Assembly: GCF_004010155.1 (NCBI RefSeq) | Contig: NZ_RRYH01000036.1 | Location: 1 to 51,550, forward strand | Length of the DNA stretch: 51,550 nt | From: Solirhodobacter olei | GTDB lineage: Bacteria; Pseudomonadota; Alphaproteobacteria; Rhodobacterales; Rhodobacteraceae | Direction: 5' to 3' | The notes under the pieces: model-generated | Told to the model about the DNA's origin: nothing | The model's database searches: none | The model's input: only the letters and a program-made list of their open reading frames with translations | Shown: positions 18,021-51,327 of the stretch, one piece after another | How the letters are laid out: each line of letters opens with the position of its first letter | Numbering within the stretch: the stretch's first letter is position 1 | Program-made: the position numbers and the translations under genes

Positions 18021-18026
18021 TGTCAT

Positions 18027-19019: not shown

Positions 19020-19119
19020 TGTCTCCTCCTCCTCAGGTTGGTCTTCGATCGCGCGTAACTCCCGTGTGTCGGGAAGGGTATTGGCCGGCGCGAGCGCGCG
19101 TCACATCCCGCCGGAAGGT

Positions 19120-19165: not shown

Positions 19166-19206
19166 GGCGGCTGGCGGTCGCACGGACGGAGCAGGCGTTA
19201 GGGCGC

Positions 19207-20202: not shown

Positions 20203-20253
20203 CCTTTGCTCCTGTCCGGCCCCGGCGGTCTTGCTGCTGTCATCCCGCATGGC

Positions 20254-20994: not shown

Positions 20995-21033
20995 TCCCGT
21001 CTCTTCCCTTACCCTTACGTGCCCACTTCGCCC

Positions 21034-25327: not shown

Positions 25328-25355
25328 GGTCATCCTGCTCAGGCGGAAAGGGGCA

Positions 25356-25390
25356 GGCTGCGCCGGCGGGCTTTCGCCTCCGGCGCAGCC
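25356..25390 (-). terminator. intercistronic hairpin after the binding-protein gene
   Basis: GGCTGCGCCGG (25356-25366) and CCGGCGCAGCC (25380-25390) form a perfect 11-bp stem with a 13-nt loop, between the binding-protein stop (25435) and the ATPase start (25327). No T run follows on the minus strand. It is more likely an mRNA-stabilising or partial-termination element that raises binding protein over membrane components. Confidence 0.5.
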
Positions 25391-25434
25391 ATTCAATGGG
25401 TCGGGTCGCGCGCTGCGCGGCCCTCCGAGGTCCG

Positions 25435-26400: not shown

Positions 26401-26582
26401 ATTTATCCTCCCTTGGAGCAGGCCTCCCCGGCCGCTCTCTCCCTTCGACCAATTCCACAACAAGCGCAAAACCTTGCGCATGGGTTCGGGTAAGACACGC
26501 CGGAAGTTGTACTTCCCATTCGCCCCTTGTCCCACACTAGTCACACTAAGTTTCTGGATTGAGACGAGTCAACAGGCTAGAA

Positions 26583-35525: not shown

Positions 35526-35531
35526 GTGCTA

Positions 35532-35550
35532 ATATGTATCTTATCCATAT
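35532..35550. promoter_or_regulatory. candidate LysR binding site
   Basis: ATATG (35532-35536) and CATAT (35546-35550) are inverted around 9 bases, just upstream of the LysR gene start and within the divergent promoter shared with the dioxygenase gene. Size and symmetry fit a LysR-type T-N11-A box. Confidence 0.45.
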
Positions 35551-35609
35551 ATTATTTGAAATTAACATCTGCTTTGGCACATTGGAAACAAGCCAAAGGG
35601 GACCCCCAA

Positions 35610-36407
35610 ATGTTGCATGCGCTCTTGACCCCAGAACATGTGGATAGCTTCCAGCGCGATGGCGTGGTTCTGGTTCGCGGCTTGTTCAAGGATCATGTTG
35701 ACCTGCTCCGCAGCGGGATCGAACGGAACATGGCTCAGCCAAGCGAATATGCCGCTGAGAACCTCAAAGCCGGTGAAGGCGGCCGTTTCTTCGACGATTA
35801 CTGCAACTGGCAACGAATCTCGGAGTTCAAGGAGGTCATCACCACCTCTCCCGCGGCGGCGGTGGCGGCCGATCTCATGCAATCCGCTACGGTCCAGATG
35901 TTCCATGACCATGTGCTGGTGAAGGAGCCCGGCACGTCCAAGCCGACGCCCTGGCACCAGGATGGTCCCTACTATTTCGTCGAAGGCCGGCAAACGATCA
36001 GTTTCTGGTCGCCGCTTGATCCGGTGCGCGAAGCCTCGCTACGATGCGTTGCGGGCTCGCACCTTTGGGAGAAGCCGGTTCTTCCAACGCGCTGGCTGTC
36101 CGAGGAGAATTTCTATCCCGATGAAGATGCCTACATGCCGGTTCCGGACCCAGACGCCGAGGGGATGAAGGTCCTCGAATGGAATATGGAGCCCGGTGAT
36201 GCGGTCGCTTTTCATTATAGCACGCTTCACGGCGCCCGAGGCAACGAGACGGCATCACGCCGACGCGCCTTTTCCCTGCGCCTTCTGGGAGATGACGCCC
36301 GCTATGTAGAGCGACCGGGCCGAACTTCGCCGCCGTTCCCCGGTCATGGAATGAAGGCGGGTGACCGACTGCGGGAAGATTGGTTCCCGGTAGTGTACCG
36401 GCGCTAG
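35610..36407 (+). CDS. phytanoyl-CoA dioxygenase (PhyH) family Fe(II)/2-oxoglutarate oxygenase
   Basis: The 265-aa protein has the double-stranded beta-helix iron triad H116, D118 (PWHQDGPYY) and H207 (STLHGARGN), with the 2OG-binding Arg in SRRRAF. AAAGGGG precedes the ATG at 35610; the longer frame from 35526 is not supported. Family members hydroxylate varied small molecules, often free carboxylates rather than CoA esters. It is divergent to a LysR gene and has no other metabolic neighbour, so the substrate cannot be guessed. Confidence 0.85.
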   Translation: MLHALLTPEHVDSFQRDGVVLVRGLFKDHVDLLRSGIERNMAQPSEYAAENLKAGEGGRFFDDYCNWQRISEFKEVITTSPAAAVAADLMQSATVQMFHDHVLVKEPGTSKPTPWHQDGPYYFVEGRQTISFWSPLDPVREASLRCVAGSHLWEKPVLPTRWLSEENFYPDEDAYMPVPDPDAEGMKVLEWNMEPGDAVAFHYSTLHGARGNETASRRRAFSLRLLGDDARYVERPGRTSPPFPGHGMKAGDRLREDWFPVVYRR

Positions 36408-37807: not shown

Positions 37808-38752
37808 TTATGCATCAGTCAGGGCGAGCTCTTCACCGATGCCGAGAAGCGCTTCGCCCTCGTTCACCGACAAGCTCGTAAGACGATAGAGCAACAGACC
37901 ATCCTGCCCGGCGTTAACCTGCGCAAGTACCTCGCCAAAGATGGAACGAATTTCGCCTAGCGGCTCTCCTTTAGCAACGGGATCATCCGGTTCCTTGAAG
38001 CAATACCAAAGGCCTCTGCAAGGGGCGACCGGAACGGACATGGTAACAAGACGCGGTACAGCTTCCCCATTGGCGGGGGCCGTGCGGATCATTCCAAGAT
38101 GCGCCATAACTCGAGCAATCCCGTCGGTGATACGAGTCACCTTGTCATCGTCCCACAGGCCATTGCCGCTGACCTCCGGCAGGATACTTGGCACGCCCAG
38201 CTGACGCGCAGCCGAAACCGTGTGGCCCGGACTCCCGGAGGCAATGATCGTAGGCAGGCCAAAGGCCCGTGCAAGCGCGAGGGATGCGGCACAGCCATGC
38301 GGATAGATCACAAAAGGTGAAAGGGACTCGTCAAGGTCCCCTCCGTGCAGGTCCAGATAGGCATCCGCCAGCGGATAGACGCAAGTGACAAGCCAGTTCG
38401 CGAGTCTTTCGCTCGCACTACCGTCCGGCCGGCCGGGAAAGACTCGGTTTAAGTTCTGTCCATCCTCCGGCATCACGTAAATGCTACGTTTCCAAAAGCC
38501 ATTTACGTTGAGGATCGGCAGCACCAGAAGAGTCCCCTCCAACTCTTCGGGCTGCATCGTCGTCATGCGCGTAGCGGCTTCTATCGAACAGAACTCTGAC
38601 CCGTGAACGCCGGCGGTAATGACGAGAACCGGGCCGGGCCGAGTGCCTTCGATCAATGTATAGGGTATTTCGAGGTCATGGTCGGGTTTCAAATGGCCCT
38701 GAAGTTTGCGTGCTGAGCCAGTCTTCAGATTCGGTAGCGCCATCATATTCAT
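37808..38752 (-). CDS. AstE/AspA-family zinc deacylase
   Basis: The 314-aa protein belongs to the succinylglutamate desuccinylase/aspartoacylase (M14-like) family. Zinc ligands H50 and E53 (GVHGSEF) and H136 (DLHGGD), the NxNR motif QNLNRVFPG and catalytic E193 (LPEVSGNG) are present. A C-terminal beta domain (about 230-310) includes GLWYCFKEPDDPVAKGEPLG. It would release an amino acid from an N-acyl or amide conjugate. The ATG overlaps the M20 peptidase stop (ATGA, 38749-38752). It is the last gene of the GntR-headed leftward operon. Confidence 0.88.
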   Translation of the reverse strand: MNMMALPNLKTGSARKLQGHLKPDHDLEIPYTLIEGTRPGPVLVITAGVHGSEFCSIEAATRMTTMQPEELEGTLLVLPILNVNGFWKRSIYVMPEDGQNLNRVFPGRPDGSASERLANWLVTCVYPLADAYLDLHGGDLDESLSPFVIYPHGCAASLALARAFGLPTIIASGSPGHTVSAARQLGVPSILPEVSGNGLWDDDKVTRITDGIARVMAHLGMIRTAPANGEAVPRLVTMSVPVAPCRGLWYCFKEPDDPVAKGEPLGEIRSIFGEVLAQVNAGQDGLLLYRLTSLSVNEGEALLGIGEELALTDA

Positions 38753-40182
38753 TCTCTGCTGGTTTTGCGGACTGCGCCTTGCGAGGCCACTGCACGTATG
38801 TCTTCCGGGGCCATGCCTCCCAGACGGTCCAGCAGCCTTACCCAGGCAACGAGGCCCTGGCGCAGACTGGATAACCGGAAGAACTCGTTCGGTGCGTGGT
38901 AGTCCTCGTCTGCCGTCGAAAAGGAGAAGAACACCGTTCCCACCCCCAGCGCGCGACGAAACACGTCGGGAATGGGGATCGTCGCCCCCATGGCGACCCG
39001 TAGCGGCGGTGCACCCAGAACTTTGCCCAGAACCTCTTCGGCAAGGGCAAGCGCGGGATCGGCCGGGTCCAACGCGAAGGCTGCGCTACCCGGCCCGTGA
39101 CGAGTGAATTCCAGCCGGTACCCGGTGGGCGTAAGGCGGCGTAACTCTGCCTCCAGCGCCCGGGCCGCGCTGTCGGGCGTCTGTCCGGCGACGAGGCGGC
39201 AGGTGATCTTCACGCTTGCGTCGGTGGGGATGACAGTCTTGGTGCCGGCGCCGGCGTAGCCGCCGGAGATACCATTGAACTCCAGCGTCGGCTCCAGCCA
39301 TTGACGGCGCAGAAGAGTCTCGGCGTCGGGCAGGGGGTCAGGCAACTCCGCGCCAATCGAGACAAAATAGGCCGCGGGGTCGAAGTTTGCATGACGGATC
39401 GCATTGAGGATGGCGGGATCGGGCACAGCGGTCCCGTCGGAAAAGCCCGGGACAATGACACGGCCTACATCATCGTGGAGGGCTGCAAGCATACGTGTCA
39501 GCACTCGTATCGGGTTCGGGGCACTTCCGCCGTGACGGCCGGAATGCAGATCCTTTCCGGCGCCGGTCAGCCGCACCTCAAAAGCTACAAGGCCGCGGCC
39601 CGCGACCATCACGGATGGCAGGTCGGCCCGCCACATTGCGCCGTCGGCCGAAAGCACGAGATCGCAGGACAGACGCTCGCTTAGGCGCGCGACAGTCTGG
39701 GCAAAATGTGGGCTACCGGATTCCTCCTCGCCTTCGATTAGGAATTTCATGTTCAACGGCAGGCTGCCGCGCACGCGGGTGAAGGCCGCCGCGGCCTTGA
39801 TAGCGATCAGCAACGGGCCCTTGTCGTCCGACACGCCGCGCGCATAGAGCCGGCCGTCGCGCAGGGTCGGATCGAACGGGGGCGACTGCCAGGCCTCCAA
39901 CGGGTCGGGGGGCTGCACGTCGTAGTGTCCGTAGACCAGAACCGTGGGCGCACCCGGCACGTCGCAGCGCTCTGCGTAGACCGCCGGATGGCCACCGGTT
40001 TCTATCCGTTCGACCGTCTGGAAGCCGGCCCCGCGCAGCTGCGCGGCAACGAAATCTGCCGCGCGGGCAATCTCGGGCGCATAGGCAGGATCGGTACTGA
40101 CCGAGGCGATCCGGCAATAATCCATCAGGTCGGACAGGATGGCGGGCTCATCCGCCAGAAGCGCCGTTTCGACTTCGGTCAT
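38749..40182 (-). CDS. M20-family metallopeptidase (dipeptidase type)
   Basis: The 477-aa protein has di-zinc ligands H86 and D88 (GHYDVQPPDP), bridging D119 (SDDKGP), general base and ligand Glu 152-153 (EGEEESGS), and a C-terminal His in DEDYHAPNE. GHYDVQP and HAPNE are typical of CNDP/carnosinase-like dipeptidases, with a dimerisation domain at about 200-340. It lacks a signal peptide, so it acts on imported substrate. Both ends are ATGA-coupled to neighbours (40179-40182 and 38749-38752). Confidence 0.92.
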   Translation of the reverse strand: MTEVETALLADEPAILSDLMDYCRIASVSTDPAYAPEIARAADFVAAQLRGAGFQTVERIETGGHPAVYAERCDVPGAPTVLVYGHYDVQPPDPLEAWQSPPFDPTLRDGRLYARGVSDDKGPLLIAIKAAAAFTRVRGSLPLNMKFLIEGEEESGSPHFAQTVARLSERLSCDLVLSADGAMWRADLPSVMVAGRGLVAFEVRLTGAGKDLHSGRHGGSAPNPIRVLTRMLAALHDDVGRVIVPGFSDGTAVPDPAILNAIRHANFDPAAYFVSIGAELPDPLPDAETLLRRQWLEPTLEFNGISGGYAGAGTKTVIPTDASVKITCRLVAGQTPDSAARALEAELRRLTPTGYRLEFTRHGPGSAAFALDPADPALALAEEVLGKVLGAPPLRVAMGATIPIPDVFRRALGVGTVFFSFSTADEDYHAPNEFFRLSSLRQGLVAWVRLLDRLGGMAPEDIRAVASQGAVRKTSRE

Positions 40183-40937
40183 TTGCCCCCGTCCACGCTC
40201 AGGATCTGACCGGAAATCCAGCCCGCCTGTTCGGAGGCGAAGAACAGCACGGCATTAGAAATGTCGTCCGGATCGCCAAGCCGCTTCAGGGCGATACCTT
40301 CCAGCACGCGCTTCTGTCCATCGGGGCCCATGGCGTCCCATTGTCGTTCGGTCGTGGGGTTTGAGCGGACGAAGCCCGGCGCCACGTTGTTGACCGTGAT
40401 GCCCCATGGGCCAAGCTCGTGGGCCAGTTGCCGGGTCAGGCCGATCTGGCCCGCCTTGGCGCTTGCATAGGCCTGGATCCCGGTCAGGCTGATCCCGAGG
40501 CCCGCGCCCGAAGAAATGTTGACGACGCGTCCCTTGCCTTTGGCCTTCATGCCGGGTGCCACGGCCTGCGTCATGTAGAAGGCGCCGCTCAGGTTCACGT
40601 CGAAGATGACCTGCCAGTCCTTCTGGCTGATCTCCTCGATCGGGCGTCCTGCCTGTCCGCAAACGCCGCCTGCGTTGTTGACGAGGACATCGACTGCGCC
40701 GTCCACCTCCACGATCCCGGCGACAAGGCGCTGCACCGCGTCGCGGTCGGTCACGTCAAGGGTGTGAGCGGTGGTGGAGGCGCCGCAAAGGCGTTCCGTC
40801 TCGGCGAGTTCGTCGGCAACGACATCGCAGGCGTGAACCTTTGCGCCGCGGGAGGCGAAGGCCAGCGCGATGGCGCGGCCGAACCCGTGTGCTGCGCCGG
40901 TGACGATGACGGTGCACCCGTCGAAGCGGATGTTCAT
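40179..40937 (-). CDS. short-chain dehydrogenase/reductase
   Basis: This 252-aa classical SDR has the cofactor motif TGAAHGFG (13-20), NNAG (87-90), the catalytic Ser in NISSG (142-143), Y157 and K161 (YASAK). D38 after the second strand (VHACDVV) favours NAD(H). FGRAIALAFASRGAKV and the C-terminal SVDGGK are typical. It probably oxidises or reduces a hydroxyl or keto group of the compound handled by this operon. ATGA overlaps join it to the ketopantoate-reductase-like gene and the M20 gene. Confidence 0.92.
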   Translation of the reverse strand: MNIRFDGCTVIVTGAAHGFGRAIALAFASRGAKVHACDVVADELAETERLCGASTTAHTLDVTDRDAVQRLVAGIVEVDGAVDVLVNNAGGVCGQAGRPIEEISQKDWQVIFDVNLSGAFYMTQAVAPGMKAKGKGRVVNISSGAGLGISLTGIQAYASAKAGQIGLTRQLAHELGPWGITVNNVAPGFVRSNPTTERQWDAMGPDGQKRVLEGIALKRLGDPDDISNAVLFFASEQAGWISGQILSVDGGK

Positions 40938-41968
40938 GCCTCGATCTCCCGTGCAGCCGTGCCTGCCAGCTCTTCAATGTTGGTGCTGGACAGTGGGCGT
41001 TCCGCCCGTTCGATCTCGTGGATCAGTTCGATGAGACGCGCCGTGATCTGGCAGGGCAGCCCCCGGCGTGTACCCGCCTCGACGATCGGGCCAAGCTGCG
41101 CATCGACCTCGGTCGGACGCTTCCGCACGGCGAGGTCGCGCCAGATCCCGGAATGCGACTTCAGCGACCGGCGATTGTGCGCGACCATCAGGTCGAAGGA
41201 CCGCGTCGTTTCCGACGCCGTGGCTGTGGGCGTGAAGGCTGTCGGCTCAAACCCGTCGAAGCCCTGCAGCGCGACGCCTTCGGCCGCGGCGATGCGGCCA
41301 ACCTCAAGCGCAAGCGCGGTCAGGACAGGCCTGCTTTGCGGATCGTCAAGCACATCGGCGATGCTGTCGTTGGTCACGGCCGTTCCGAACAGCAGCGCGC
41401 CGTAGATCAGCTTGCCCCAAAGGTAGCCCCAGATGTTATCGGTCAGAACGGCGTTCGGTTCGAACGTCTTCAGCTGTTTCCAGATCGCCTGCACACGCGG
41501 GCTGGTGCTTCCGTCCAGTTCGCCCACTACCACTGCGCCACGGCCGCTGTAGTGCACGACGCCGGGTTCCAGGTAGTCTGCGCCGAAATTCACGAAACAG
41601 CCGATGGTGCGGTCCGCGCCGATCTCGGCAGCGATAACCTTCTCGTTCAGGCCGTTTTGGGCGGAAACGACATGCCCGTCCGCGGCGATGAAGGGGGCAA
41701 GGGAACGGATCGCCTCGGCCGTATGCTGGGCCTTCACGCAAAGGTAGACATTGCGAAAGGTGCCCGTCAGTTCCTCCGGCAGGCAGGCCGCGGCGGTCAC
41801 TGTGTCTTCAAAGATCGGCCCCTCGATCCGGAGGCCCTTTGCCCGGATCGCCTCCACATGGTCGGCCGCGCGGTCCACGAAGACGACCTTCTGGCCAGCG
41901 CGCAGGAAAGCCGCGCCAAGCGACCCGCCGATGGCGCCGGCGCCCCAGATCAGGGTGGTGTCGTTCAT
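40934..41968 (-). CDS. ketopantoate reductase (ApbA/PanE) family protein
   Basis: The 344-aa protein has a Rossmann N terminus (WGAGAIGGSLGAAFLRAG, then FVDRAADHVEAI), a VYLCVKAQHTAEAI strand and AQNGLNE. A C-terminal helical domain contains the catalytic Lys region WGKLIYGAL. Family enzymes reduce 2-keto acids with NAD(P)H; remote members act on other keto or hydroxy acids. I place the start at 41968, where ATG overlaps the creatininase-family stop (ATGA) as at every other junction here. An ATG two codons upstream is also possible. A role in pantothenate synthesis is unlikely in this context. Confidence 0.87.
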   Translation of the reverse strand: MNDTTLIWGAGAIGGSLGAAFLRAGQKVVFVDRAADHVEAIRAKGLRIEGPIFEDTVTAAACLPEELTGTFRNVYLCVKAQHTAEAIRSLAPFIAADGHVVSAQNGLNEKVIAAEIGADRTIGCFVNFGADYLEPGVVHYSGRGAVVVGELDGSTSPRVQAIWKQLKTFEPNAVLTDNIWGYLWGKLIYGALLFGTAVTNDSIADVLDDPQSRPVLTALALEVGRIAAAEGVALQGFDGFEPTAFTPTATASETTRSFDLMVAHNRRSLKSHSGIWRDLAVRKRPTEVDAQLGPIVEAGTRRGLPCQITARLIELIHEIERAERPLSSTNIEELAGTAAREIEA

Positions 41969-42666
41969 GCCCATGGCCCCTCGAGCAGCGCGCGCGTCTC
42001 TTCGACCGCGACATCCCAGATCGACTGCATCTCTTCATCCGAGCGCTGGTAGTAGCCGCCGAAATTTCCATCACCGAGGTAGGCGCGCACACCCTTCGGG
42101 TCCATCACACGCATCCGGCCAAGGTCGATCATCGGCTTTTGCTGGGTTGGCAGTTCCACGCCCGGCAGGCGCGTCCAGGGGAAGTTTTCCATCCAAGACG
42201 CGTGCGAGGCGACAGTGTCGATCTCCTGGACGCGAGCAAAGGTCTTGGGGGCGTTCCACCAGTTGTGGAACTTCACGGCGACGCCCGGATTCTCAGCCAT
42301 CCATTCGATGGCCAGCGCCCCGGCCGGTTGATTGCCGCCATGCCCATTCACGATCAGGATGCGCCGAAACCCCTGGGCGGCCATACAGTTAAGGATGTCC
42401 CGCACGATCCGGGTATAGGTGTCCACGCGCAGGCTGATCGAGCCCGGATAGCCAAGGAAATAGGGCGTAAGCCCATAAGCCACTACAGGGAAGACCGGCA
42501 CGCCAAGCTGTTCGGCAGCATCGGCCGCCACCTTTTCCGACAGGATTGAATCGACCGACAGCGACAGGCCGGCATGTTGTTCGGTGCTGCCCAGTGGCAG
42601 GATCGCGCGGTCGTCGCGCTCGAGGTAATCCTCGACCATCTGCCAGTTCATGTCGGTTATCTTCAT
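41965..42666 (-). CDS. creatininase-family amidohydrolase
   Basis: The 233-aa protein has the family metal site: E29 and H31 in PLGSTEQHA, D39 (SVDS), H109 in NGHGGN and a late Glu in SHASWMEN. Family members hydrolyse cyclic amides (creatinine) or formamides (FAPy deformylase, mycofactocin peptide maturation). The usual E-x-H-G-x-H-L-P is altered to EQHAGLSLS, so the substrate differs from creatinine. It is the first metabolic gene after the regulator, overlapping it by ATGA (42663-42666). Opening of a lactam or removal of an amide cap is plausible. Confidence 0.88.
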   Translation of the reverse strand: MKITDMNWQMVEDYLERDDRAILPLGSTEQHAGLSLSVDSILSEKVAADAAEQLGVPVFPVVAYGLTPYFLGYPGSISLRVDTYTRIVRDILNCMAAQGFRRILIVNGHGGNQPAGALAIEWMAENPGVAVKFHNWWNAPKTFARVQEIDTVASHASWMENFPWTRLPGVELPTQQKPMIDLGRMRVMDPKGVRAYLGDGNFGGYYQRSDEEMQSIWDVAVEETRALLEGPWA

Positions 42667-43652
42667 GGCTCCGTCTTCCTCCTCGTCGGTTTCGATACAC
42701 CGGCCTTATTGACAAAGGGCCGGACAAAACGGTCCACGTCGCCGGGGTCGGGGATGTGGCTGTATTCGATGAATTGCGCGCCTTCTCGTGCGGATCGGGT
42801 GACGGCATCCGCCCCGGTTGCGAAGACGATGACGTCGCGGTCCGCCAGAAGTTCGGGGGCGGCCGGGTCATCTTCGTTCAGCGCCACAATATCGCGCACG
42901 TGAGGCGCGAAGCGTTGCACGCCCGACCGGATGATCGGCAGGAAGTCGATGAATTTCGACGCAACCGCCACCCGCGCCATAGGGCTCAGGGAGGCCAGCC
43001 GAAGCCGTGTTTCTTCCGACGGGATGAAGCGTAGAGCGACGACCTTAGTGGCCGGAAACATAGTCGCGACATCCGTGCGCAGGTTGGAGAAGGTGATGAT
43101 GAGGTCAGCGCCGCCCGCGGCCGCCTTGGTCGCGGGCTCCTTCTGGATCGCATCCATCGTCATCGGGCGCACAGAGGCGATCTCGCCCAGTTGCTGTTCA
43201 ACCTGCCGGGCGTAGCGCCCAGTCGCCTCGGCGAACAGGCCGACGATGACGATGCTGGCCTGGCGCCCGACGCTATTGCGCAGGGCCACGCGTTGCGACA
43301 GCAGAGCCGCCAGTTCTGTCGCCTGCACCCCGATGCTTTCGCCGTAGTCAAGGATGCGGTCGATTTCCCAATGCAAGTTGTCGATTTCCGGGCGCATCGC
43401 CATCTGCGCCTTCACGCTGTCAGTAACGTAGGTGCCAGAGCCAGCCCGCGCCTCCACTAGCCCCTCGCGCTTGAGTTCGGCATAGGCCTGGTTGATCGTC
43501 ATGGGCGCCACGGCCAGATCCTCGGCCAGTTCGCGGACCGAGGGGAGGCATTCGCCGATGGCAAGCTCGCCGCAGGCGATGGCGTATTCGATCGTTCCCT
43601 TTATCTGCCGCCAGACTGGCGTGCCCGAGGCGCGGTCGATTGAGAAGTCCAT
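42663..43652 (-). CDS. GntR-family regulator with periplasmic-binding-like C-terminal domain
   Basis: The 329-aa protein has a GntR winged helix (about 10-75: PVWRQIKGTIEYAIACGELA, SVRELAEDLAVAPMTINQAY, GLVEARAGSGTYV). A long C-terminal alpha/beta domain (about 110-315) has strands such as ASIVIVGLF, ADLIITFSNL and DVIVFATGADAV. This resembles periplasmic-binding-protein-like effector domains rather than FCD or UTRA. It heads the leftward operon. It is also divergent to the peptide-transporter operon across a 199-bp gap with an exact inverted site pair, one copy 13 bases from its own start. It likely represses both directions and itself. Confidence 0.9.
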   Translation of the reverse strand: MDFSIDRASGTPVWRQIKGTIEYAIACGELAIGECLPSVRELAEDLAVAPMTINQAYAELKREGLVEARAGSGTYVTDSVKAQMAMRPEIDNLHWEIDRILDYGESIGVQATELAALLSQRVALRNSVGRQASIVIVGLFAEATGRYARQVEQQLGEIASVRPMTMDAIQKEPATKAAAGGADLIITFSNLRTDVATMFPATKVVALRFIPSEETRLRLASLSPMARVAVASKFIDFLPIIRSGVQRFAPHVRDIVALNEDDPAAPELLADRDVIVFATGADAVTRSAREGAQFIEYSHIPDPGDVDRFVRPFVNKAGVSKPTRRKTEP

Positions 43653-43664
43653 GCATCACCATCA

Positions 43665-43675
43665 AAAGTGTTATA
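43665..43675 (-). promoter_or_regulatory. operator half-site pair, proximal to gntR
   Basis: AAAGTGTTATA lies 13 bases upstream of the GntR start codon. It is the exact reverse complement of the site at 43809-43819 near the transporter gene. One copy at each end of the divergent promoter suggests coordinated repression, possibly by looping. Confidence 0.6.
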
Positions 43676-43808
43676 TTAGAATAGAACAGCTTATGCTTCG
43701 CGGCAAGGCGTTTCTGCCCAACCAGTAATCATGTTGTGCGGCCCCCCCTTGGATTTTCTGATTATTTTATTGACATGCCTTAGTACGATATGAAAGCCTA
43801 ATCTGTGC

Positions 43809-43819
43809 TATAACACTTT
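43809..43819 (+). promoter_or_regulatory. operator copy, proximal to the transporter operon
   Basis: TATAACACTTT is the exact reverse complement of 43665-43675. It lies 32 bases upstream of the binding-protein ATG, where it would overlap the core promoter. Confidence 0.6.
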
Positions 43820-43851
43820 AACCAATGACAACGTCAACAGGAAGGTGCGAG

Positions 43852-45441
43852 ATGAAGAAGACTTTGGCCGGCGCGTTCGCGGCAGCGCTGATGCTGAGCG
43901 CCGCGCAACCAGCTCTCGCCGTCGAGCGGGGCGGGACCCTTGTTTATGGGCGCTATGCGGACAGCCTGTTCCTCGACCCCGTTCTCAACGATGCGAACGT
44001 GGACATCTGGGTGCTGTCCAACCTTTACGACACGCTGCTTTTGCCGACCGACAACGGGCAGGGGGTCCAGGCCGGGATTGCCACGAAATGGGATGTGTCG
44101 GCAGACGGCATGTCCGTGACGCTTCAGCTGCGTAAAGGAGCGAAGTTCTCCAACGGCCGCGACATCACCCCCGAGGATGTCATCTGGTCGCTGGAGCGCG
44201 CCGCCAACCCTAAGAACGGCATCTGGAACTTCCTGATCTCGTCGATCGACAAGGTGGTTCCGGATGGGAGCGACGGCGTCAAGATCATGCTCAAGCATCC
44301 TGACCCAGCCATTCTGCATGCGCTGACCGTGTTCAACACCGCGGTCATGCCGGAGAAGGAATTCGAGGCTGAGCCCGGCAATACGGACGAGGCAAAGGCC
44401 CGCGAATTCGCCAAGGACCCGATCGGGTCTGGCCCCTTCGTGCTAAAAAGCTGGGTACATGGCCAGTCTATGACGCTGGTGCGCAACCCTTATTATTGGG
44501 CCAAGGGTTCGGACGGAAAGGCGCTGCCCTACCTCAACTCGGTTGTCTTCAAGGTCATCCCGGACGATGCGACCCGGATCCTTCAGTTGCAGTCCGGCGC
44601 GCTGGACGGGGCGGAGTTCATCCCCTACGCCCGTGTGCAGGAGCTCAAGAAAGCTTCAGGCATCAACATGGAACTCTACCCCTCCACTCGGGTCGAATAC
44701 GTGACGATGAACGTGCGCAAGGATGTGGCTGGCAAAGCCAACCCGCTGTCGAATCCTGAGGTGCGGCAGGCGCTGAACTACGCCACAAACAAGAAGGCGA
44801 TCATCCAGATCGTTACGCATGGTGTGGGCTCGCCCATGTCCTCGTTCATGTCCTCGGCCACGCCACTGCACGCGGGCAAGGGAGAGCTTTACCCCTATGA
44901 TCTCGCCAAGGCGAAGGCGCTGATGGCGAAGGCGGGCTACGGCAAGGGGTTCTCGACCTCGCTGCTGGTTCTGGCCGGCAATCAGGACGAGCTTTCGATC
45001 GCCACCATGCTGCAGCAGATGTGGGGGCAGATCGGCGTGAAGCTACAGCTTCAACAGGTCGACAACGCGACGCGCACGGATGAATACCGCAAGGGCGATT
45101 TCTCGATGCGGCTGTCAGCATGGACCGATGACATCGCTGACCCGAGCGAGATCACATCCTATTTCGCCTATTCGCCGACGATCCAGTCACTCCATACCGG
45201 CTGGAAGAACGACACGGTCGACAAGCTCTTTGTGCAGTCCCAATCTCAGATGGACGCGGCCAAGCGCAAGGAGGAATACGCAAAGATCCAGCAGATCTTC
45301 AACACGACCGGGCCGACCGTTTCTCTGTACCAGACGCCCTATCCAGTGGCGCTGCGCAAGGATGTCCACGGTTTCGTGCAGATCCCGCTGGGCAACAACA
45401 TTTTCCGCGGGGCCTGGGTGTCGAAGAAGACCTCCAACTGA
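43852..45441 (+). CDS. peptide ABC transporter substrate-binding protein (SBP_bac_5)
   Basis: The 529-aa protein has a signal peptide MKKTLAGAFAAALMLSAAQP with cleavage near ALA-VER. It is a family 5 solute-binding protein (DppA/OppA/NikA): ATKWDVSADGMSVTLQLRKG, KFSNGRDITPEDVIWSLERA, DPIGSGPFVLKSW, NPYYWAKG and ALNYATNKKAI. AGGAAGG precedes ATG 43852. It is the first gene of the rightward operon and is followed by a strong hairpin before the first permease. The ligand is unknown; the operon's peptidases and amidases suggest a peptide or N-acylated amino compound. Confidence 0.92.
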   Translation: MKKTLAGAFAAALMLSAAQPALAVERGGTLVYGRYADSLFLDPVLNDANVDIWVLSNLYDTLLLPTDNGQGVQAGIATKWDVSADGMSVTLQLRKGAKFSNGRDITPEDVIWSLERAANPKNGIWNFLISSIDKVVPDGSDGVKIMLKHPDPAILHALTVFNTAVMPEKEFEAEPGNTDEAKAREFAKDPIGSGPFVLKSWVHGQSMTLVRNPYYWAKGSDGKALPYLNSVVFKVIPDDATRILQLQSGALDGAEFIPYARVQELKKASGINMELYPSTRVEYVTMNVRKDVAGKANPLSNPEVRQALNYATNKKAIIQIVTHGVGSPMSSFMSSATPLHAGKGELYPYDLAKAKALMAKAGYGKGFSTSLLVLAGNQDELSIATMLQQMWGQIGVKLQLQQVDNATRTDEYRKGDFSMRLSAWTDDIADPSEITSYFAYSPTIQSLHTGWKNDTVDKLFVQSQSQMDAAKRKEEYAKIQQIFNTTGPTVSLYQTPYPVALRKDVHGFVQIPLGNNIFRGAWVSKKTSN

Positions 45442-45451
45442 CAGGCTGATC

Positions 45452-45478
45452 GGGCAGGCGGCATCACGCCGCCTGCCC
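45452..45478 (+). terminator. intercistronic hairpin after the binding-protein gene
   Basis: GGGCAGGCGGC (45452-45462) and GCCGCCTGCCC (45468-45478) form a perfect 11-bp stem with a 5-nt loop between the binding-protein and permease genes. No T tract follows, so partial termination or mRNA 3'-end protection giving excess binding protein is likely. Confidence 0.55.
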
Positions 45479-45503
45479 ATGTCCGACGATCGGAGGGACA
45501 TTC

Positions 45504-46442
45504 TTGCATCTGTTGCTCTACGTCCTGCGCCGGATCATTCAACTGATCCCGACGCTTCTGTTCATCGCCCTCGTGGTGTTCCTGCTTGTCCACCTGCTGC
45601 CGGGCGATCCAGCTAGCGCTATGCTGGGCGACAGGGCCCTGACGGCGGACGTGAACCGGATCAACCATGAGCTTGGGCTTGACCGGCCGCTGCCGGTTCA
45701 GTTTCTGCTGTTCCTGCGCAATCTCCTGCACGGCGATCTTGGCCGCTCGATCCAGTTGCATCAGTCGGTGGTGTCGCTCATCGAGCAGCGCCTGCCGGTA
45801 ACAATCCTGCTGACCGTCATGTCCGCGCTCGTCGCCGTCGTCCTCGCGCTGCCTTTGGCCTTTGTCGCCGCCCTGCGCCGCGACCGCGAGGCCGACGTGC
45901 TGATCCGGGGCACGTTCCAGATCGGGCTGTCGATGCCGGTCTTCTACATCGGCCTTCTGTTGCTGACCTTTTTCGGGGCCTATCTGCGCTGGTTTCCCGT
46001 GGGTGGCTATGGCGACACGTTCGCGAGCCACCTTTATCACCTTTTCCTTCCGGCCCTGACGCTGGCGCTGAGCCTGTCTGCGGTGCTAATGCGCAACCTG
46101 CGTCAGGCTATACTGTCGGTAATCGGGGCCGAATACGTGGATTTCGCGCGCGCCAAGGGGTTGCCTGCGCGGCTGGTACTGTTGCGCCATGTACTGCGCA
46201 ACGCGTTAATATCGACGGTGACGCTGTTCGGGCTTCAGATTGGCACGCTTCTGGGCGGCGCGGTGGTGACCGAGACAGTCTTTGCCATCCCGGGCGCCGG
46301 ACGCCTGATGATCGAAAGCATCTACGGCCGCGACTACCCGGTCGTGCAGGGCACGACCCTGTGCCTCGCCGTGGTCGTTTCACTCACCTTCCTTCTGACG
46401 GACCTCATCCAGGTCATGCTTGATCCGAGGCTTTCACGATGA
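45504..46442 (+). CDS. peptide ABC transporter permease (DppB type)
   Basis: The 312-aa protein has six TM helices and the DppB-type N terminus (LRRIIQLIPTLLFIALVVFL, HLLPGDPA). Other landmarks are the extracytoplasmic NRINHELGLDRPLPVQF, the EAA loop EYVDFARAKGLPARLVLLRH and the end VMLDPRLSR. Translation starts at a TTG (45504) with CGGAGGGA spaced 5-6 bases before it. The weak start, after a hairpin, suggests low permease expression relative to the binding protein. It overlaps the next gene by ATGA (46439-46442). Confidence 0.92.
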   Translation: MHLLLYVLRRIIQLIPTLLFIALVVFLLVHLLPGDPASAMLGDRALTADVNRINHELGLDRPLPVQFLLFLRNLLHGDLGRSIQLHQSVVSLIEQRLPVTILLTVMSALVAVVLALPLAFVAALRRDREADVLIRGTFQIGLSMPVFYIGLLLLTFFGAYLRWFPVGGYGDTFASHLYHLFLPALTLALSLSAVLMRNLRQAILSVIGAEYVDFARAKGLPARLVLLRHVLRNALISTVTLFGLQIGTLLGGAVVTETVFAIPGAGRLMIESIYGRDYPVVQGTTLCLAVVVSLTFLLTDLIQVMLDPRLSR

Positions 46443-47290
46443 CCTTCGCCCTGTCGTTACGCGGCCAGCGCCGGAAGACGCGAGCCCGCCGCATTCCCGT
46501 TTCGTTGATAGTCGGGGGCGCGATGCTGGCAATCCAGCTTCTGCTGGCGGTCTTCCCATCGGTCTTCGCGCCATATGCGCCAGACAGCTTCGACTACAAC
46601 GCGCTGATGCAGCCACCTAGCCTTGCGCATCTGTTCGGCACCGACAACTTCGGACGCGACGTGCTGAGCCGTGTCATCCATGCCTATTCGGTGGACATGC
46701 AGATCGCCTTCTTCGCGACAGTCCTTCCATTCCTTTTCGGCACCTCGATAGGGGCGGTGATAGGCTATACCGGCGGGCTGGCCGAGACGATCTTCGGCCG
46801 GCTGGTGGATGCGATCATTACATTCCCCTTCCTCGTGCTGGTCATCGCCATCGTGGCCGTCCTCGGGCCAGGGCTCAATAACATGTATATCGCCGTAGGC
46901 GTGGTGGACTGGGTGTTCTACGCGCGCCTCGCCGTGGCAGAGGTGAAGGTGCAGAAGCGCCTCGACTACGCCGAAGCGGGCCGGGCCATGGGCTACAGCC
47001 CCGCGCGGATCGTGTTCCGCCACCTGATGCCGAACATCATCACGCCTCTAATCGTCTATTGGATGACAGACATGGCACTGGCGATCCTGCTGGGGTCGAG
47101 CCTTGGTTACCTTGGCCTCGGCGCGCAGCCGCCGATTGCCGAATGGGGCGTGCAGATCGCAGATGCGAAGAACTTCATGGGGACGGCTTGGTGGATGTCG
47201 GTCTTCCCCGGCGTAGCGATTGTCGTGGCAGGGCTGAGCTTCAGCCTGACCGGTGATGGCGTGGCGGAAAAAATGAGAACGCGGCGATGA
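46439..47290 (+). CDS. peptide ABC transporter permease (DppC type)
   Basis: The 283-aa protein matches the DppC family by LFGTDNFGRDVLSRVIHAY, the EAA loop DYAEAGRAMGYSPARIVFRH, LMPNIITPLIV and SSLGYLGLGAQPPIAEWG. It forms the heterodimeric channel with the upstream permease. Coupled by ATGA overlaps on both sides. Confidence 0.93.
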   Translation: MTFALSLRGQRRKTRARRIPVSLIVGGAMLAIQLLLAVFPSVFAPYAPDSFDYNALMQPPSLAHLFGTDNFGRDVLSRVIHAYSVDMQIAFFATVLPFLFGTSIGAVIGYTGGLAETIFGRLVDAIITFPFLVLVIAIVAVLGPGLNNMYIAVGVVDWVFYARLAVAEVKVQKRLDYAEAGRAMGYSPARIVFRHLMPNIITPLIVYWMTDMALAILLGSSLGYLGLGAQPPIAEWGVQIADAKNFMGTAWWMSVFPGVAIVVAGLSFSLTGDGVAEKMRTRR

Positions 47291-48282
47291 AGGCTGGCCT
47301 TTCCCTTGAAGTGAAGAACCTGTCTACGACGTTCGAAACGCCGCTCGGTGCCGTGACCGCCGTCGATGGTGTGAGCTTTGACGTGCATCCAGGTGAGGTC
47401 CTGGGGCTAGTAGGGGAATCCGGGTCCGGCAAGAGCGTCACACTGCGGTCTCTGATCGGATTGATCCATCCGCCGGGCAAGGTAACCGGGCAGGTGACAT
47501 GGAACGGGCAGGACCTGCTTTCGGTGCCGCCGGGCCGCCTGCGCCGCGTGCGCGGGGGAGAGATCGCGATGATCTTCCAGGAGCCGATGACCGCGCTTAA
47601 CCCTGTCCTGACCGTCGGCCTGCAGGTCGAGGAAAACCTTCGCGCTCATACCGCGCTTGATCGGGGCCAGCGCCGGGCGCGGGCGATCGAACTGTTCGAT
47701 CTTGTCGGCATTCCGGACGCGAAGCGGCGGCTTGAGAACTACCCCCACCAGTTCTCGGGCGGGATGCGGCAGCGTGTGATGATCGCGATCGCATTGGCTA
47801 GCAACCCCAAGCTTCTCCTGGCGGACGAGCCGACGACCGCGCTGGACGTGACGATCCAAGACCAGATCCTGAAGCTGATCCTGTCGCTGCGCGATGAGTT
47901 GCAGATGGGCGTCGTACTGGTCACGCACGACCTTGGGGTCGTGGCGGGCACCTGCGACCGCATTGCAGTGATGTACGCCGGGCGGATCGTTGAGTCGGGC
48001 AGCGTGCTGGAAATCTTCGACGGACCCCGCCATGCCTACACGCGGGGGCTTCTGGCGTCGGTTCCGCAGGCGGGGGCCGAGCGCGGGCCACTTCTGGCAA
48101 TTGAGGGCACGCCACCGGCACTGTCGGCCCTTCCCACCGGTTGCGCCTTCGGTCCGCGGTGCAGTTTCGCAAACGATGCCTGCCGGGCCACCCGGCCTGA
48201 GTTGGCGGAGATCGGGCCCGGTCGGCAGGTCGCCTGCCTGCACCATGAAACCGTTGCGGCAAGCAAGGGGCAATTCGCATGA
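47287..48282 (+). CDS. peptide ABC transporter ATPase (DppD type)
   Basis: The 331-aa ATPase has Walker A GESGSGKS, FSGGMRQRVMIAIALA signature, Walker B LLLADEPTTALD and H-loop VTHDLGVV. A C-terminal oligopeptide-transporter extension carries the cysteine pattern GCAFGPRCSFANDAC. It pairs with the next ATPase. ATGA overlaps on both sides (47287-47290, 48279-48282). Confidence 0.94.
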   Translation: MKAGLSLEVKNLSTTFETPLGAVTAVDGVSFDVHPGEVLGLVGESGSGKSVTLRSLIGLIHPPGKVTGQVTWNGQDLLSVPPGRLRRVRGGEIAMIFQEPMTALNPVLTVGLQVEENLRAHTALDRGQRRARAIELFDLVGIPDAKRRLENYPHQFSGGMRQRVMIAIALASNPKLLLADEPTTALDVTIQDQILKLILSLRDELQMGVVLVTHDLGVVAGTCDRIAVMYAGRIVESGSVLEIFDGPRHAYTRGLLASVPQAGAERGPLLAIEGTPPALSALPTGCAFGPRCSFANDACRATRPELAEIGPGRQVACLHHETVAASKGQFA

Positions 48283-49280
48283 CAGATCCCACGCTGATCT
48301 CGCTCGAGGACGTGGGCAAGGTCTTCCCGATGAACAGTTCGCTGCTGCGCTTCATGCGGGGGCTGCCGCAATCGAGGGTAAATGCGCTGAACGGCGTGAC
48401 CTTCGAAATCCGACGCGGTGAGACGGTCGGCATCGTCGGCGAAAGCGGCTGCGGCAAGTCCACGTTGGCGCGCTGCCTCGTGCGTCTGCATGACTGCGAT
48501 TCCGGCCGGATCCGGTTCGAGGGCAATGACATCGCCGAGCTGGAAGGAGCGAACCGGCGGCAGTTCAACCGCCGTGTGCAAATGATCTTCCAAGACCCAT
48601 ACAGTTCGCTCAATCCCCGGATGAGGGTGCGTCAGATTCTGGCCGAGGCGCTGTCGGTCCACCGGATGCGCCCGAAGGCCGAGATCCCCGCCCGGATAGC
48701 GGAGCTTCTGGACACCGTGCGGCTGCCCTCAGACGCAGCGGACAAGTTCCCGCACGAATTCTCGGGTGGGCAGCGCCAGCGCATTGGCATCGCTCGCGCC
48801 CTTGCTGTGGAACCCGAGGTACTGGTGGCTGACGAGCTGGTCTCGGCCCTTGACGTGTCGGTGCAGGCGCAGGTGGTAAACCTGCTGCTGCGGCTTCAGA
48901 CAGAGCTTGGCCTGACCGTCGTCTTCGTGGCCCATGACCTACGGCTGGTGCGCCACATCTCGCACCGGGTCGTCGTCATGTACCTTGGCCGCGTGGTCGA
49001 GATCGGTCCGACCGAGCGGATATTCTCGGCCGCGGCGCATCCCTATACGCAGGCCCTTCTGGCCGCTGCGCCTGAAATGGATCCACGCCACCGCAATACC
49101 AAACCTGCCGCGCGGGGGGAACTGCCCAGCCCATTGAACCTGCCACCGGGCTGTGCCTTCAATACGCGCTGCCCGTTGGCGACGGGCCGCTGTTTCACCG
49201 AGCGTCCCGAGCTTCGGGCAACGGAATACGGCCATATGGCCGCCTGCCACCTTGTCGATGCACATGCCGTTTCAGCCTGA
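48279..49280 (+). CDS. peptide ABC transporter ATPase (DppF type)
   Basis: The 333-aa ATPase has Walker A GESGCGKST, MIFQDPYSSLNPRM Q-loop, signature FSGGQRQRIGIARALA and H-loop VAHDLRLVRH. The Walker B reads VLVADELVSALD, with Leu where most DppF proteins have Pro after DE; the catalytic Glu is intact. The C-terminal cysteine pattern is GCAFNTRCPLATGRC. The gene ends 9 bases before the M32 carboxypeptidase gene. Confidence 0.94.
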   Translation: MTDPTLISLEDVGKVFPMNSSLLRFMRGLPQSRVNALNGVTFEIRRGETVGIVGESGCGKSTLARCLVRLHDCDSGRIRFEGNDIAELEGANRRQFNRRVQMIFQDPYSSLNPRMRVRQILAEALSVHRMRPKAEIPARIAELLDTVRLPSDAADKFPHEFSGGQRQRIGIARALAVEPEVLVADELVSALDVSVQAQVVNLLLRLQTELGLTVVFVAHDLRLVRHISHRVVVMYLGRVVEIGPTERIFSAAAHPYTQALLAAAPEMDPRHRNTKPAARGELPSPLNLPPGCAFNTRCPLATGRCFTERPELRATEYGHMAACHLVDAHAVSA

Positions 49281-49289
49281 GGTTTCCCG

Positions 49290-50804
49290 ATGAGCTACAC
49301 CGATTTCACCGCCGAACTGGCGGCCGTCAGCGATCTGCTAAGCGCGATCAACCTGCTGAACTGGGATGCCCGCACGCAGATGCCGCCGGACGGCGCGCAA
49401 ACGCGCTCCAAGCAGATTGCGACTCTGACCGCGATCGCGCGGGACGCGGCGGCTTCGGACCGGATGAAGGAGATCATCGCACGCGCTGAGGACGCTTTGA
49501 GCGATGCGCCAAAAACCGACCTGCGCCGCCGCGCGCTTGCGCAGGCCCGGCGCGAAATCGACATCCTGCGCCGTATCCCCGCCGCCCTGATTACCGAGAC
49601 GGCGGAGCTGAGCGCGATAAGCCATTCCCTTTGGGCCAAGGCGCGGGCGGCGGATGATTTCGCCCTGTTCGCTCCGGTGATCGAGAAGACCTTTGCCCTG
49701 CAACGCAGCATTGCCGAGGCGATCGGCTATGACGACCATCCCTATGACGCGCTGGTTTCGCGCTATGAACCGGGCATGACGCGGGCGAAGCTACGCCCGC
49801 TCTTCGACGCTTTGCGCAGCGGGATCGCGCCGCTGGTGGACCGAGCGCGGGGGGCGGAGGTGCGTACCGACTTCCTTTCCCGCGGGTTCCCAGTGGCGGC
49901 CCAGAGGGCGTTTGGCATCAAGTTGGCCGAACGGATGGGCTATGACATGACGCGCGGCCGCGTCGACGATACCGTGCACCCGTTCGAGATCTCGTTCACG
50001 CGGCAGGACGTGCGCATCACCAGCCGCTTTCGCGGGGATGCGATCTCGGCCGGGTTCTTCGCGCTCTGGCACGAGGCGGGACATGGGATGTACGAACAGA
50101 ACATAGCGCCAGAATTCACCCGCAGCATCTTCGCAACGGATCTGGTCAATCTCTACGCCGTTGGCGGCACAAGCTTCGGTGCGCATGAATCCCAATCGCG
50201 GCTGTGGGAGAACCGCGTGGGCCGCTCGCCCCGGTTCTGGGAACATCACTACTCCGAACTGCTCGCGGCCTTCCCGGACCAGCTGGCCGATGTCAGCGTC
50301 GAGGAGTTCTGGCGCGCCGTGAACCGCGCGGAGCCGGGCCTGGTACGCGTCGAGGCGGATGAGCTTACCTACGACATGCACATCATTTTGCGGGCCGAGA
50401 TCGAGATGGCGCTGCTCACGGGCGATCTATCGGTGGCCGACCTTCCAGACGCCTGGGCTGGGAAGATGCGCGACTACCTCGGCGTCACAGTGCCTTCCGA
50501 CCGGCTGGGCGTATTGCAGGACGTGCACTGGTCGCATGGGTACGTCGGATCCTTCCCGACCTACACGATCGGCAATGTCATGTCGGCACAGTTCTTCGAG
50601 GCCGCCATGGCGGCGCCTGGTGTCGCCGACGGGCTTGTGGCGGGGGACTACACTGAGCTGCGGGCCTGGCTGACAGAACACGTCTATCGCCACGGCCGGT
50701 CGCTTCTGCCGGACGAATTGCTGGTGTCTTCCACGGGCCGCAGCCTTGACACTGCGCCCTACCTTGCCGAGCTGTCGGCCAAGGTCGACCGGCTGACGGC
50801 CTGA
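49290..50804 (+). CDS. M32-family carboxypeptidase (Taq type)
   Basis: The 504-aa protein is of normal length for the family. The zinc motif is HEAGH (H261, E262, H265, in ALWHEAGHGMYEQ), with the third ligand E300 in AHESQSRLWEN. Other markers are the N-terminal LLNWDARTQMPP and DVHWSHGYVGSFPTYTIGN near the C terminus. It removes C-terminal residues from peptides in the cytoplasm with broad specificity. It lies in the transporter operon, so it probably trims the imported substrate. Confidence 0.94.
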   Translation: MSYTDFTAELAAVSDLLSAINLLNWDARTQMPPDGAQTRSKQIATLTAIARDAAASDRMKEIIARAEDALSDAPKTDLRRRALAQARREIDILRRIPAALITETAELSAISHSLWAKARAADDFALFAPVIEKTFALQRSIAEAIGYDDHPYDALVSRYEPGMTRAKLRPLFDALRSGIAPLVDRARGAEVRTDFLSRGFPVAAQRAFGIKLAERMGYDMTRGRVDDTVHPFEISFTRQDVRITSRFRGDAISAGFFALWHEAGHGMYEQNIAPEFTRSIFATDLVNLYAVGGTSFGAHESQSRLWENRVGRSPRFWEHHYSELLAAFPDQLADVSVEEFWRAVNRAEPGLVRVEADELTYDMHIILRAEIEMALLTGDLSVADLPDAWAGKMRDYLGVTVPSDRLGVLQDVHWSHGYVGSFPTYTIGNVMSAQFFEAAMAAPGVADGLVAGDYTELRAWLTEHVYRHGRSLLPDELLVSSTGRSLDTAPYLAELSAKVDRLTA

Positions 50805-50823
50805 CATTGCCGGGGATATTTCC

Positions 50824-51327
50824 ATGACTGACACCAGCCAGACCATCGTGACGGCCGACCTCTACGACGCCCACCATGACATCGTTCAAGTCTGCACCTT
50901 GCAGTTCCGATCCTTCGGTCGCCGCACAAGCTTCTGTGGCCCCTGTGAGACTTTGAGGGTTTTTCAGGATCACACGCCTGTTCTCGCCGCAGTGGTGGAG
51001 CCGGGCAGGGGCAGAGTGCTGGTCGTCGATGCGGGCGGTGAGCTTAAGATTGGAGTGATGGGAGACCGCATTGCCGGAAAAGCGCAGGAGAATGGCTGGT
51101 CGGGTGTGGTCATCAATGGCGCCGTGCGCGACACAATGGGGCTGAACGCGATTGATATCGGGGTAAAGGCTCTTGGCGCCACTGCGCGGCGAAGTTGGGT
51201 CCCCGCTTCGTCCAGCCGCGGTCAAGAACTTAATTTCGGGGGTACCCGGTTTCGCGCGGGTGACTGGATCTACGCTGATCTCGATGCCGTCATTGTCTCC
51301 AATGAGCCACTCACCATAGGGAGATGA
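50824..51327 (+). CDS. RraA-family protein, aldolase-type
   Basis: The 167-aa protein has the RraA fold: N-terminal TADLYDAHHDIVQVCTLQF, then VLVVDAGGELKIGVMGDRIA, GWSGVVINGAVRD and LNFGGTRFRAGDWIYADLDA. E. coli RraA, an RNase E inhibitor, lacks the Asp of the RD pair. This protein keeps GAVRD, the motif of divalent-metal 4-hydroxy-4-methyl-2-oxoglutarate / oxaloacetate aldolase-decarboxylases. It is the last gene of the rightward operon (19 bases after the carboxypeptidase), so a catabolic carbon-carbon cleavage or decarboxylation is more likely than RNase control. Confidence 0.82.
   Translation: MTDTSQTIVTADLYDAHHDIVQVCTLQFRSFGRRTSFCGPCETLRVFQDHTPVLAAVVEPGRGRVLVVDAGGELKIGVMGDRIAGKAQENGWSGVVINGAVRDTMGLNAIDIGVKALGATARRSWVPASSSRGQELNFGGTRFRAGDWIYADLDAVIVSNEPLTIGR

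Follow-up and report, generated by a model that had tools for sequence, protein, structure and literature searches.

Several described systems share features with the gene cluster reported here. In the Pip/Aap systems of Pseudomonas a peptide-type ABC importer lies beside peptidases; Pip systems are described as pairing a LuxR solo with a proline iminopeptidase; AapF, the receptor of a plant-signal system, was solved with HEHEAA, and a review states that this ligand cannot be bound by a close homologue of AapF from another species (PMC10134790, PMC11168924, PMC7301841). Further points of comparison are the Dpp and Gsi importers for dipeptides and glutathione, opine uptake by Agrobacterium through AgaA and AccA, creatinine degradation, and the ketopantoate reductases (PanE/ApbA). 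We analyzed a 51,550-nucleotide (nt) stretch of the Solirhodobacter olei genome (contig NZ_RRYH01000036.1; "the window" means this entire stretch), in which 13 open reading frames (ORFs) between 37808 and 51327 are arranged as two divergent groups. The minus-strand group runs from a GntR-type regulator through a creatininase-family amidohydrolase (CRN), a ketopantoate reductase-like protein (KPR), an SDR-family dehydrogenase (SDR) and an M20 dipeptidase to an AstE-type deacylase, and the plus-strand group comprises a five-gene Dpp-type importer, an M32 carboxypeptidase and an RraA-type protein. We are far surer that most of these 13 genes work together as one unit than we are of the full mechanism by which they would act.

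The importer has the five-gene architecture of the Dpp and Gsi systems, but its substrate-binding protein (hereafter, the receptor) falls under both equivalog cut-offs (DppA, 153.5 vs. 1005; GsiB, 171.7 vs. 594). The nearest solved sequence is AapF (7kz8/7kz9, 250.6 bits; the next scores 161.3), and the cluster resembles Pip/Aap also in its peptidases beside the importer and in the receptor's WTxD motif, which is retained including its Asp. However, the LuxR solo and the proline iminopeptidase of Pip are not among the 13 cluster proteins, and CRN, KPR, and SDR go unmentioned in the passages on Pip that we consulted. AgaA and AccA share the receptor superfamily but are more distant (142.6 and 58 bits), and the opine catabolic enzymes of Agrobacterium belong to other families than those of the cluster. 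The initial annotation of this DNA knew of no characterised pathway with this gene set; in agreement, gene-name searching of open-licence papers found no described cluster or pathway with it, although a negative from such papers alone says little about novelty. The parts are known families except for the sensor domain of the regulator, and a plan of regulator, importer, and hydrolases is common; a CRN/KPR/SDR core with interchangeable ends appears to be undescribed.

To assess conservation, we compared the CRN query with a genome collection and kept the best 80 loci. The tally comprised 87 loci (labeled with L-numbers), namely 77 of those 80 plus 10 wide loci from the window's genome and genomes related to it. 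The tally omitted L048, L053, and L068, whose contigs have the same lengths as contigs of relatives, the pair L035 and L036 (two halves of one contig break), the short loci L001–L030, which include all relatives' matches below 54% identity, and the plasmid loci L123–L135. Full flanks, i.e., at least 9 kb upstream and at least 4.5 kb downstream of CRN, were available for 56 loci. In 49 of these, CRN, KPR, and SDR were grouped on one strand; downstream of CRN on the same strand we found KPR in 50, SDR in 49, and M20 in 36. A regulator lay upstream of CRN in 44 loci, M32 lay nearby in 37, and a Dpp-type binding protein lay nearby in 49, in 32 cases at least 50% identical to the window's. AstE was in the operon in just 4 of the 56 loci, with RraA nearby in 7, and at E ≤ 1e-40 AstE was found in 1 of 61 related genomes, namely the window's own; both were ruled out as core members on these counts. 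The proposal that the gene set is conserved as a unit thus held for CRN-KPR-SDR, the binding protein, M32, and M20, and failed for AstE and RraA. Pairwise protein distances, with shared ancestry left in, were correlated between CRN and KPR (r 0.88), CRN and GntR (0.89), and CRN and M32 (0.94).

Since the full-flank loci had been chosen by CRN, a converse search was made with KPR. Among the 61 related genomes, CRN gave some match in 27 and a full-length match of at least 54% identity in 11 (12 places), and KPR (E ≤ 1e-40) was found at 9 places in 8 genomes, 8 of the 9 touching or almost touching a CRN gene. In 398 Pseudomonadota genomes, with scoring beyond the first pass limited to at most 5 to 7 candidates in each, KPR (E ≤ 1e-60) occurred in 5 genomes and CRN in 7, the window's genome being in both counts. 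All 5 KPR genomes carried CRN at most 3.4 kb away, on the opposite strand in two, and SDR at a stricter E ≤ 1e-85 occurred in 3 genomes, every time beside KPR. M20 alone says little on the unit, because 38 of the 61 genomes contain a relative of it at E ≤ 1e-60. These data bear on a simpler explanation, general scavenging of dipeptides or protein fragments with the oxidoreductases and CRN as incidental passengers. Although M20, M32, and Dpp belong to families that commonly serve peptide use, we regard scavenging as improbable, since the CRN-KPR-SDR trio is more constant than the peptidases (in loci chosen by CRN) and KPR, present in only 5 of 398 genomes, is too rare for housekeeping peptide use.

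Several observations weigh against a strict unit of this composition. Seventeen of the 49 nearby binding proteins are only 20–50% identical to the window's and were admitted under a loose limit, and the distance correlations of CRN with SDR and with the receptor are weaker (r 0.70 each). Neither KPR nor SDR is found in 6 of the 56 full-flank loci (L031, L041, L042, L087, L111, and L113), of which L031 holds a second CRN copy of the window's own genome, and a CRN gene on a Klebsiella plasmid (L123) has neither within the fetched stretch. Conversely, no CRN was found within 10 kb of KPR-SDR in Caballeronia or on one Neorhizobium plasmid, and a Roseomonas plasmid carries KPR without neighboring SDR or CRN. 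Since KPR-SDR is sometimes found without CRN, CRN is a usual, not an obligatory, partner, and the trio itself is not obligatory. At L080, CRN and SDR occur without KPR.

We examined the core enzymes for what their sequences say about their chemistry. CRN belongs to the creatininase superfamily (PF02633, 143.1 bits; cut-off 31.3), and its AlphaFold2 model (pLDDT 92.9) is nearest in fold to 3no4 and to the creatininase 1j2t, with query-normalised TM values of 0.84 and 0.76, respectively. Residues E29, H31, D39, and H109 align with what we take to be the creatininase metal ligands. However, CRN misses the creatininase equivalog TIGR04448 (77.5 vs. 235 bits), Gly111 occupies the place of what is presumably the creatininase ligand Glu122, and no M24/creatinase match was found by Pfam among the 13 cluster proteins. 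Creatinine catabolism was ruled out by the score far under the cut-off and the lack of a creatinase among the 13 proteins. KPR passes the ketopantoate reductase subfamily model TIGR00745 (167.1 vs. 141.35 bits) and retains the catalytic K188 and E289, but the positions that we assume correspond to the ketopantoate ligands Asn180, Asn184, and Ser244 hold Gly192 and Phe196 in 51 of 51 aligned sequences and Gly276 in 61 of 63, the other two being gapped. Plain pantoate/ketopantoate metabolism was ruled out by these changed pocket residues, as we place them. In SDR, D38 and Y157 are kept in 61 of 61 sequences. An Asp at the end of the second strand (Asp34 in KPR, Asp38 in SDR) suggests NAD by the rule that we take to apply; both enzymes are probably NAD-type dehydrogenases, and such a preference fits oxidation.

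As for the cargo, Asp436 of the receptor is present in 47 of 47 aligned window-type receptors, compared with 6 of 28 among the other receptor types, where 7 have a gap, and it aligns with the DppA Asp that, we assume, holds the free amine of the ligand. The initial annotation had favored a capped, cyclic, or N-acylated compound; since Asp436 is kept in 47 of 47, an N-capped or N-acylated cargo is disfavored for the window-type receptor, and N-capped cargo was ruled out for it on the presumed amine role of this residue. The likeness to AapF raises the option that the cluster lets the cell use an ethanolamine-type amide from plants, for instance HEHEAA, with which AapF was solved. We consider this quite unlikely: no LuxR-type regulator or proline iminopeptidase is among the 13 proteins, a close AapF homologue cannot bind HEHEAA according to the review cited above, and M32 would be left unexplained. 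The opine receptors AgaA and AccA are also among the receptor's solved relatives, and together with the creatininase fold of CRN and a KPR pocket unlike that of ketopantoate reductase they suggest glycated or opine-like amino-acid conjugates, e.g., lactams or imidazolones with a creatinine-like ring, which CRN would open and KPR oxidise. AgaA scores well below AapF, however, and no kinase, deglycase, or guanidino-hydrolase family was found in a sample of 30 representative neighbors scanned; we rate such conjugates as rather unlikely, although they could be a special case of the peptide-like nutrient that we favor below.

The ends of the cluster are exchanged among relatives. In a second lineage the receptor is of another type, about 25–28% identical to the window's, and an Asparaginase_2-family (isoaspartyl-peptidase-like) gene and a PuuE-like deacetylase are added; in Microvirga, this lineage additionally has an S58 peptidase and a cyclase-family protein. 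In L090, L103, and L122 (titled Gemmatimonadota/Acidobacteria), CRN-KPR-SDR-M20 is accompanied by an amino-acid permease, and in two of the three an S15-type hydrolase adjoins. The rhizobial loci L062 and L065 combine a TetR regulator with an MFS carrier and an Xaa-Pro-dipeptidase-like amidohydrolase; in Octadecabacter the regulator is of the MarR type; and Caballeronia, without CRN, combines an IclR regulator and an MFS carrier with KPR, SDR, and a PuuE-like enzyme. Among the few neighbors scanned at CRN-only loci titled Verrucomicrobia, none was informative. That a similar core is joined to different importers and amide hydrolases in relatives fits one chemical group presented in different peptide linkages.

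The second lineage also prompts the explanation that the cluster salvages peptides of the isoaspartyl or cyclic-imide (aminosuccinimide-like) kind, with CRN or the PuuE-like enzyme opening the ring and an isoaspartyl or ordinary dipeptidase acting next. In its favor, the core is accompanied there by Asparaginase_2-family genes and the PuuE-like deacetylase, and CRN adjoins an Asparaginase_2 gene in L111 and at the second copy in the window's genome. Nevertheless, two conserved dehydrogenases would be left without a role, and none of the 13 cluster proteins belongs to the Asparaginase_2 family; salvage of this kind is thus unlikely, again with the proviso that it could be a special case of our preferred interpretation. 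More generally, we tentatively propose, with somewhat less than even confidence, that a ring or amide opener (CRN or PuuE-like) plus KPR-SDR makes up a catabolic core, undescribed so far, that acts on one chemical group. This group would probably be a hydroxylated residue able to form a ring, and it would arrive either in alpha-linked peptides (window-type importer, M20, and M32) or in side-chain-linked peptides (second importer type and isoaspartyl-type peptidase).

We then considered regulation. The initial annotation had placed the regulator between the two operons and likened its sensor domain to a binding protein. Its GntR class was confirmed, and its place could be refined to the first gene of the minus-strand operon, because successive genes from GntR to AstE overlap by 4–10 nt at every junction. 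The likeness of the sensor gained no support: the C-terminal ~210 residues had no convincing Pfam match in 39 members scanned, a regulator profile did not match three binding proteins of the window, and the 50 Foldseek matches listed were GntR-family regulators and AraR DNA-binding domains that cover mainly the DNA-binding half; the matches to GabR and PdxR mostly extend further, with a root-mean-square deviation of about 20. Models of the MocR type (PdxR, EhuR, and MocR) match only the first 90 residues, far under cut-off. AlphaFold2 models the C-terminus confidently as an alternating alpha/beta domain (mean pLDDT 89.4); residues ~120–317 may constitute an undescribed sensor domain.

A consensus palindrome, TGTTCTA-N6-TAGAACA, lies upstream of the regulator gene. 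A matrix was trained on regulator-side sites alone from 36 hand-picked divergent loci, and the importer side was then scanned with it. Regulator-side sites scored at least 10 in 31 of the 36 loci, likewise 31 in leave-one-out, and importer-side sites did so in 26 of 36. For comparison, this score was attained in 23 of 3600 shuffled importer-side regions and in 9 of 1400 pieces drawn at random from the same loci. When L036, L044, L050, L114, and L123, which also qualify, were included, the full set of 41 divergent loci with a window-type importer had a site at the regulator side in 35 and at the importer side in 29; for 13 divergent loci with other importers, the numbers were 9 and 10, respectively. 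The regulator-side site of the window is the sole match to YGTTNTA-N6-TANAACR in its 4.78-Mb genome, where a reversed control pattern also gave 1 match. An exact 11-nt inverted repeat (43665–43675/43809–43819) joins both window sites; it has 2 matches in the window vs. 0.05 expected, with none elsewhere at up to one mismatch. The half-site AAAGTGTTATAGCACA at the importer side is common to the window and L032, its nearest relative.

These paired sites, predicted computationally, suggest that one GntR-type regulator probably controls both sides. Three points argue the other way: the regulator-side counts, leave-one-out excepted, come from the loci that trained the matrix; the importer-side site of the window is weak (6.0), a score reached by 8% of 40 shuffles; and the importer-side scan of L032 found no site (−0.1). 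The claim that the regulator serves both operons is therefore likely for most relatives, with 29 of 41 importer-side sites, and less secure for the window itself. We rejected as scarcely credible the notion that two unrelated operons merely lie back to back. The importer type does differ among loci that share the core, but importer, regulator, and core are arranged on one strand on two Deinococcus plasmids (L125 and L128) and in L097, and this arrangement, the paired sites, and the CRN-M32 correlation all speak for a link.

Together, these results are compatible with one regulon for a peptide-like nutrient, combining import, trimming, and core breakdown of an unusual residue, a proposal to which we give about an even chance. 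A short free-amine peptide would be bound by the Dpp-type receptor and imported, and the M20 and M32 peptidases, judging from their families, would trim it in the cell and free the unusual residue. CRN may then hydrolyse a cyclic or ordinary amide of that residue, KPR could oxidise a 2-hydroxy-acid-type carbon with NAD, and SDR could oxidise a second hydroxyl, also with NAD. Where present, AstE might take off an acyl group, and RraA might cleave a 4-hydroxy-2-oxo acid or decarboxylate an oxaloacetate-like acid. The GntR-type protein would repress both divergent transcripts at the paired operators until the compound or a product binds.

Computation showed the unit, its conservation, the paired sites, and the changed residues; the repression, the cargo, the step order, and the chemistry are what we infer. 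Two considerations temper the proposal: the order of steps is a guess and any substrate proposed for a core enzyme is putative, and the NAD preference, the lost ketopantoate pocket, and the role of Asp436 all depend on residue rules that we presume to hold. Several amide hydrolases served by one importer could also mean protection from a peptide-like antibiotic or toxin, not nutrition. This we hold to be very unlikely, since catabolism is what a dedicated importer would suggest, together with two dehydrogenases of probable NAD type and, in some loci, an aldolase-like gene. Overall, what the initial annotation had observed was confirmed, and its interpretation is borne out in part: most of the set is a unit, whereas AstE and RraA are not constant and a capped or N-acylated cargo is disfavored.

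The peptidase and optional enzymes give some further detail. The best solved relative of the M20 enzyme is 2zof, and against the ectoine deacetylase DoeB equivalog the cluster scores 73.5, under the cut-off of 402.7. The RraA-type protein passes the RraA family model NF006875 (169.7 vs. 136) but misses the 4-hydroxy-4-methyl-2-oxoglutarate aldolase equivalog NF009134 (129.2 vs. 196); its D-x20-RD is a motif that we take to mark aldolases/decarboxylases.

If the proposed catabolic core for one chemical group is real, its occurrence in Alphaproteobacteria, Deinococcota and, by titles of metagenome-assembled genomes (MAGs), Gemmatimonadota and Acidobacteriota would mean that its compound is a common but unrecognised one in soil, plant, and marine settings. 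About 1% of the sampled Pseudomonadota genomes (5 of 398, including the window's) and, by record titles, members of other phyla would share the core. With operator-like sites, a dedicated receptor, and few genes, the substrate should be findable. Functions could also be given to proteins automatically named creatininase family protein, 2-dehydropantoate 2-reductase, and SDR oxidoreductase; our scores and pocket residues contradict the first two of these names or leave them open.

All 13 ORFs of the initial annotation are in place, and the Pfam assignments agree for 13 of 13 proteins (Table 1). The start given there for the binding protein (MKKTL..., with GGAAGG directly upstream) is more likely than the listed one at 43825. 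Catalytic motifs were also seen in M20 (GHYD and EGEEE) and SDR (YxxxK). The RraA gene starts ~20 nt past M32, and only 223 nt separate it from the contig end, so the plus-strand operon may extend beyond the window. Promoter and terminator scans did no better than chance, and Rfam and tRNA scans gave no matches.

Table 1. Features of the cluster, in window coordinates
Feature	Position	Strand	Evidence
AstE/AspA-type deacylase, optional member	37808..38752	-	PF24827 2.8e-27
M20 dipeptidase, nearest cytosolic non-specific dipeptidases by sequence	38749..40182	-	PF01546/PF07687; NCBIfam PRK09104 424.4 bits, cut-off 327
SDR dehydrogenase, probably NAD-type (Asp38)	40179..40937	-	PF13561
KPR-like (ApbA/PanE family) dehydrogenase, altered pocket, probably NAD-type (Asp34)	40934..41974	-	PF02558/PF08546
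Creatininase-family amidohydrolase (CRN)	41965..42666	-	PF02633 1.2e-41
GntR-type regulator, unclassified alpha/beta C-terminal domain	42663..43652	-	PF00392 1.9e-16
Operator-like palindrome upstream of regulator gene, TGTTCTATTCTAATATAACA	43669..43688	.	Matrix score 23.2
Degenerate second operator-like site upstream of importer	43804..43823	.	Matrix score 6.0
Dpp-type substrate-binding protein (longest ORF from 43825)	43852..45441	+	PF00496 5.1e-98
DppB-type permease	45504..46442	+	PF00528, PF19300
DppC-type permease	46439..47290	+	PF00528; NCBIfam Opp/Nik/Dpp permease models all under cut-off
DppD-type ATPase	47287..48282	+	PF00005, PF08352
DppF-type ATPase	48279..49280	+	PF00005, PF08352
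M32 carboxypeptidase	49290..50804	+	PF02074 4.1e-169; HEAGH
RraA-type protein, optional member	50824..51327	+	PF03737; D-x20-RD

Individual loci showed further features. The second CRN copy of the window's genome (71% identical) is covered by L031, at about 9277–11196, and by L002 (341–1657) on contig 41, with a nucleoside hydrolase downstream and the Asparaginase_2-family gene divergent. L123 (6330–14117) lies on an IncFIB plasmid of Klebsiella pneumoniae and comprises a related importer, GntR, and CRN, with an IS5 element directly downstream. On two Rhizobium plasmids (L131 and L132), KPR-SDR and CRN are close to each other on the same strand but belong to separate units; in L131, they are parted by an Asparaginase_2-family gene and a receptor of the second type, both on the opposite strand. 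L054, titled Mycobacterium sp. KBS0706, carries an alphaproteobacterial-type operon, with operator-like sites identical or almost identical to those of L064, an Inquilinus MAG; the title of L054 may be a misnomer.

In the window itself, a PhyH-family dioxygenase gene divergent from a LysR regulator adjoins the cluster (34638–36407). Further away, at 12939–26544, lies a sugar-type gene cluster with an aldehyde dehydrogenase and a Gfo/Idh-type oxidoreductase, in which two ABC importers with type-I binding proteins and an IlvD/EDD-like dehydratase were recognized by eye.

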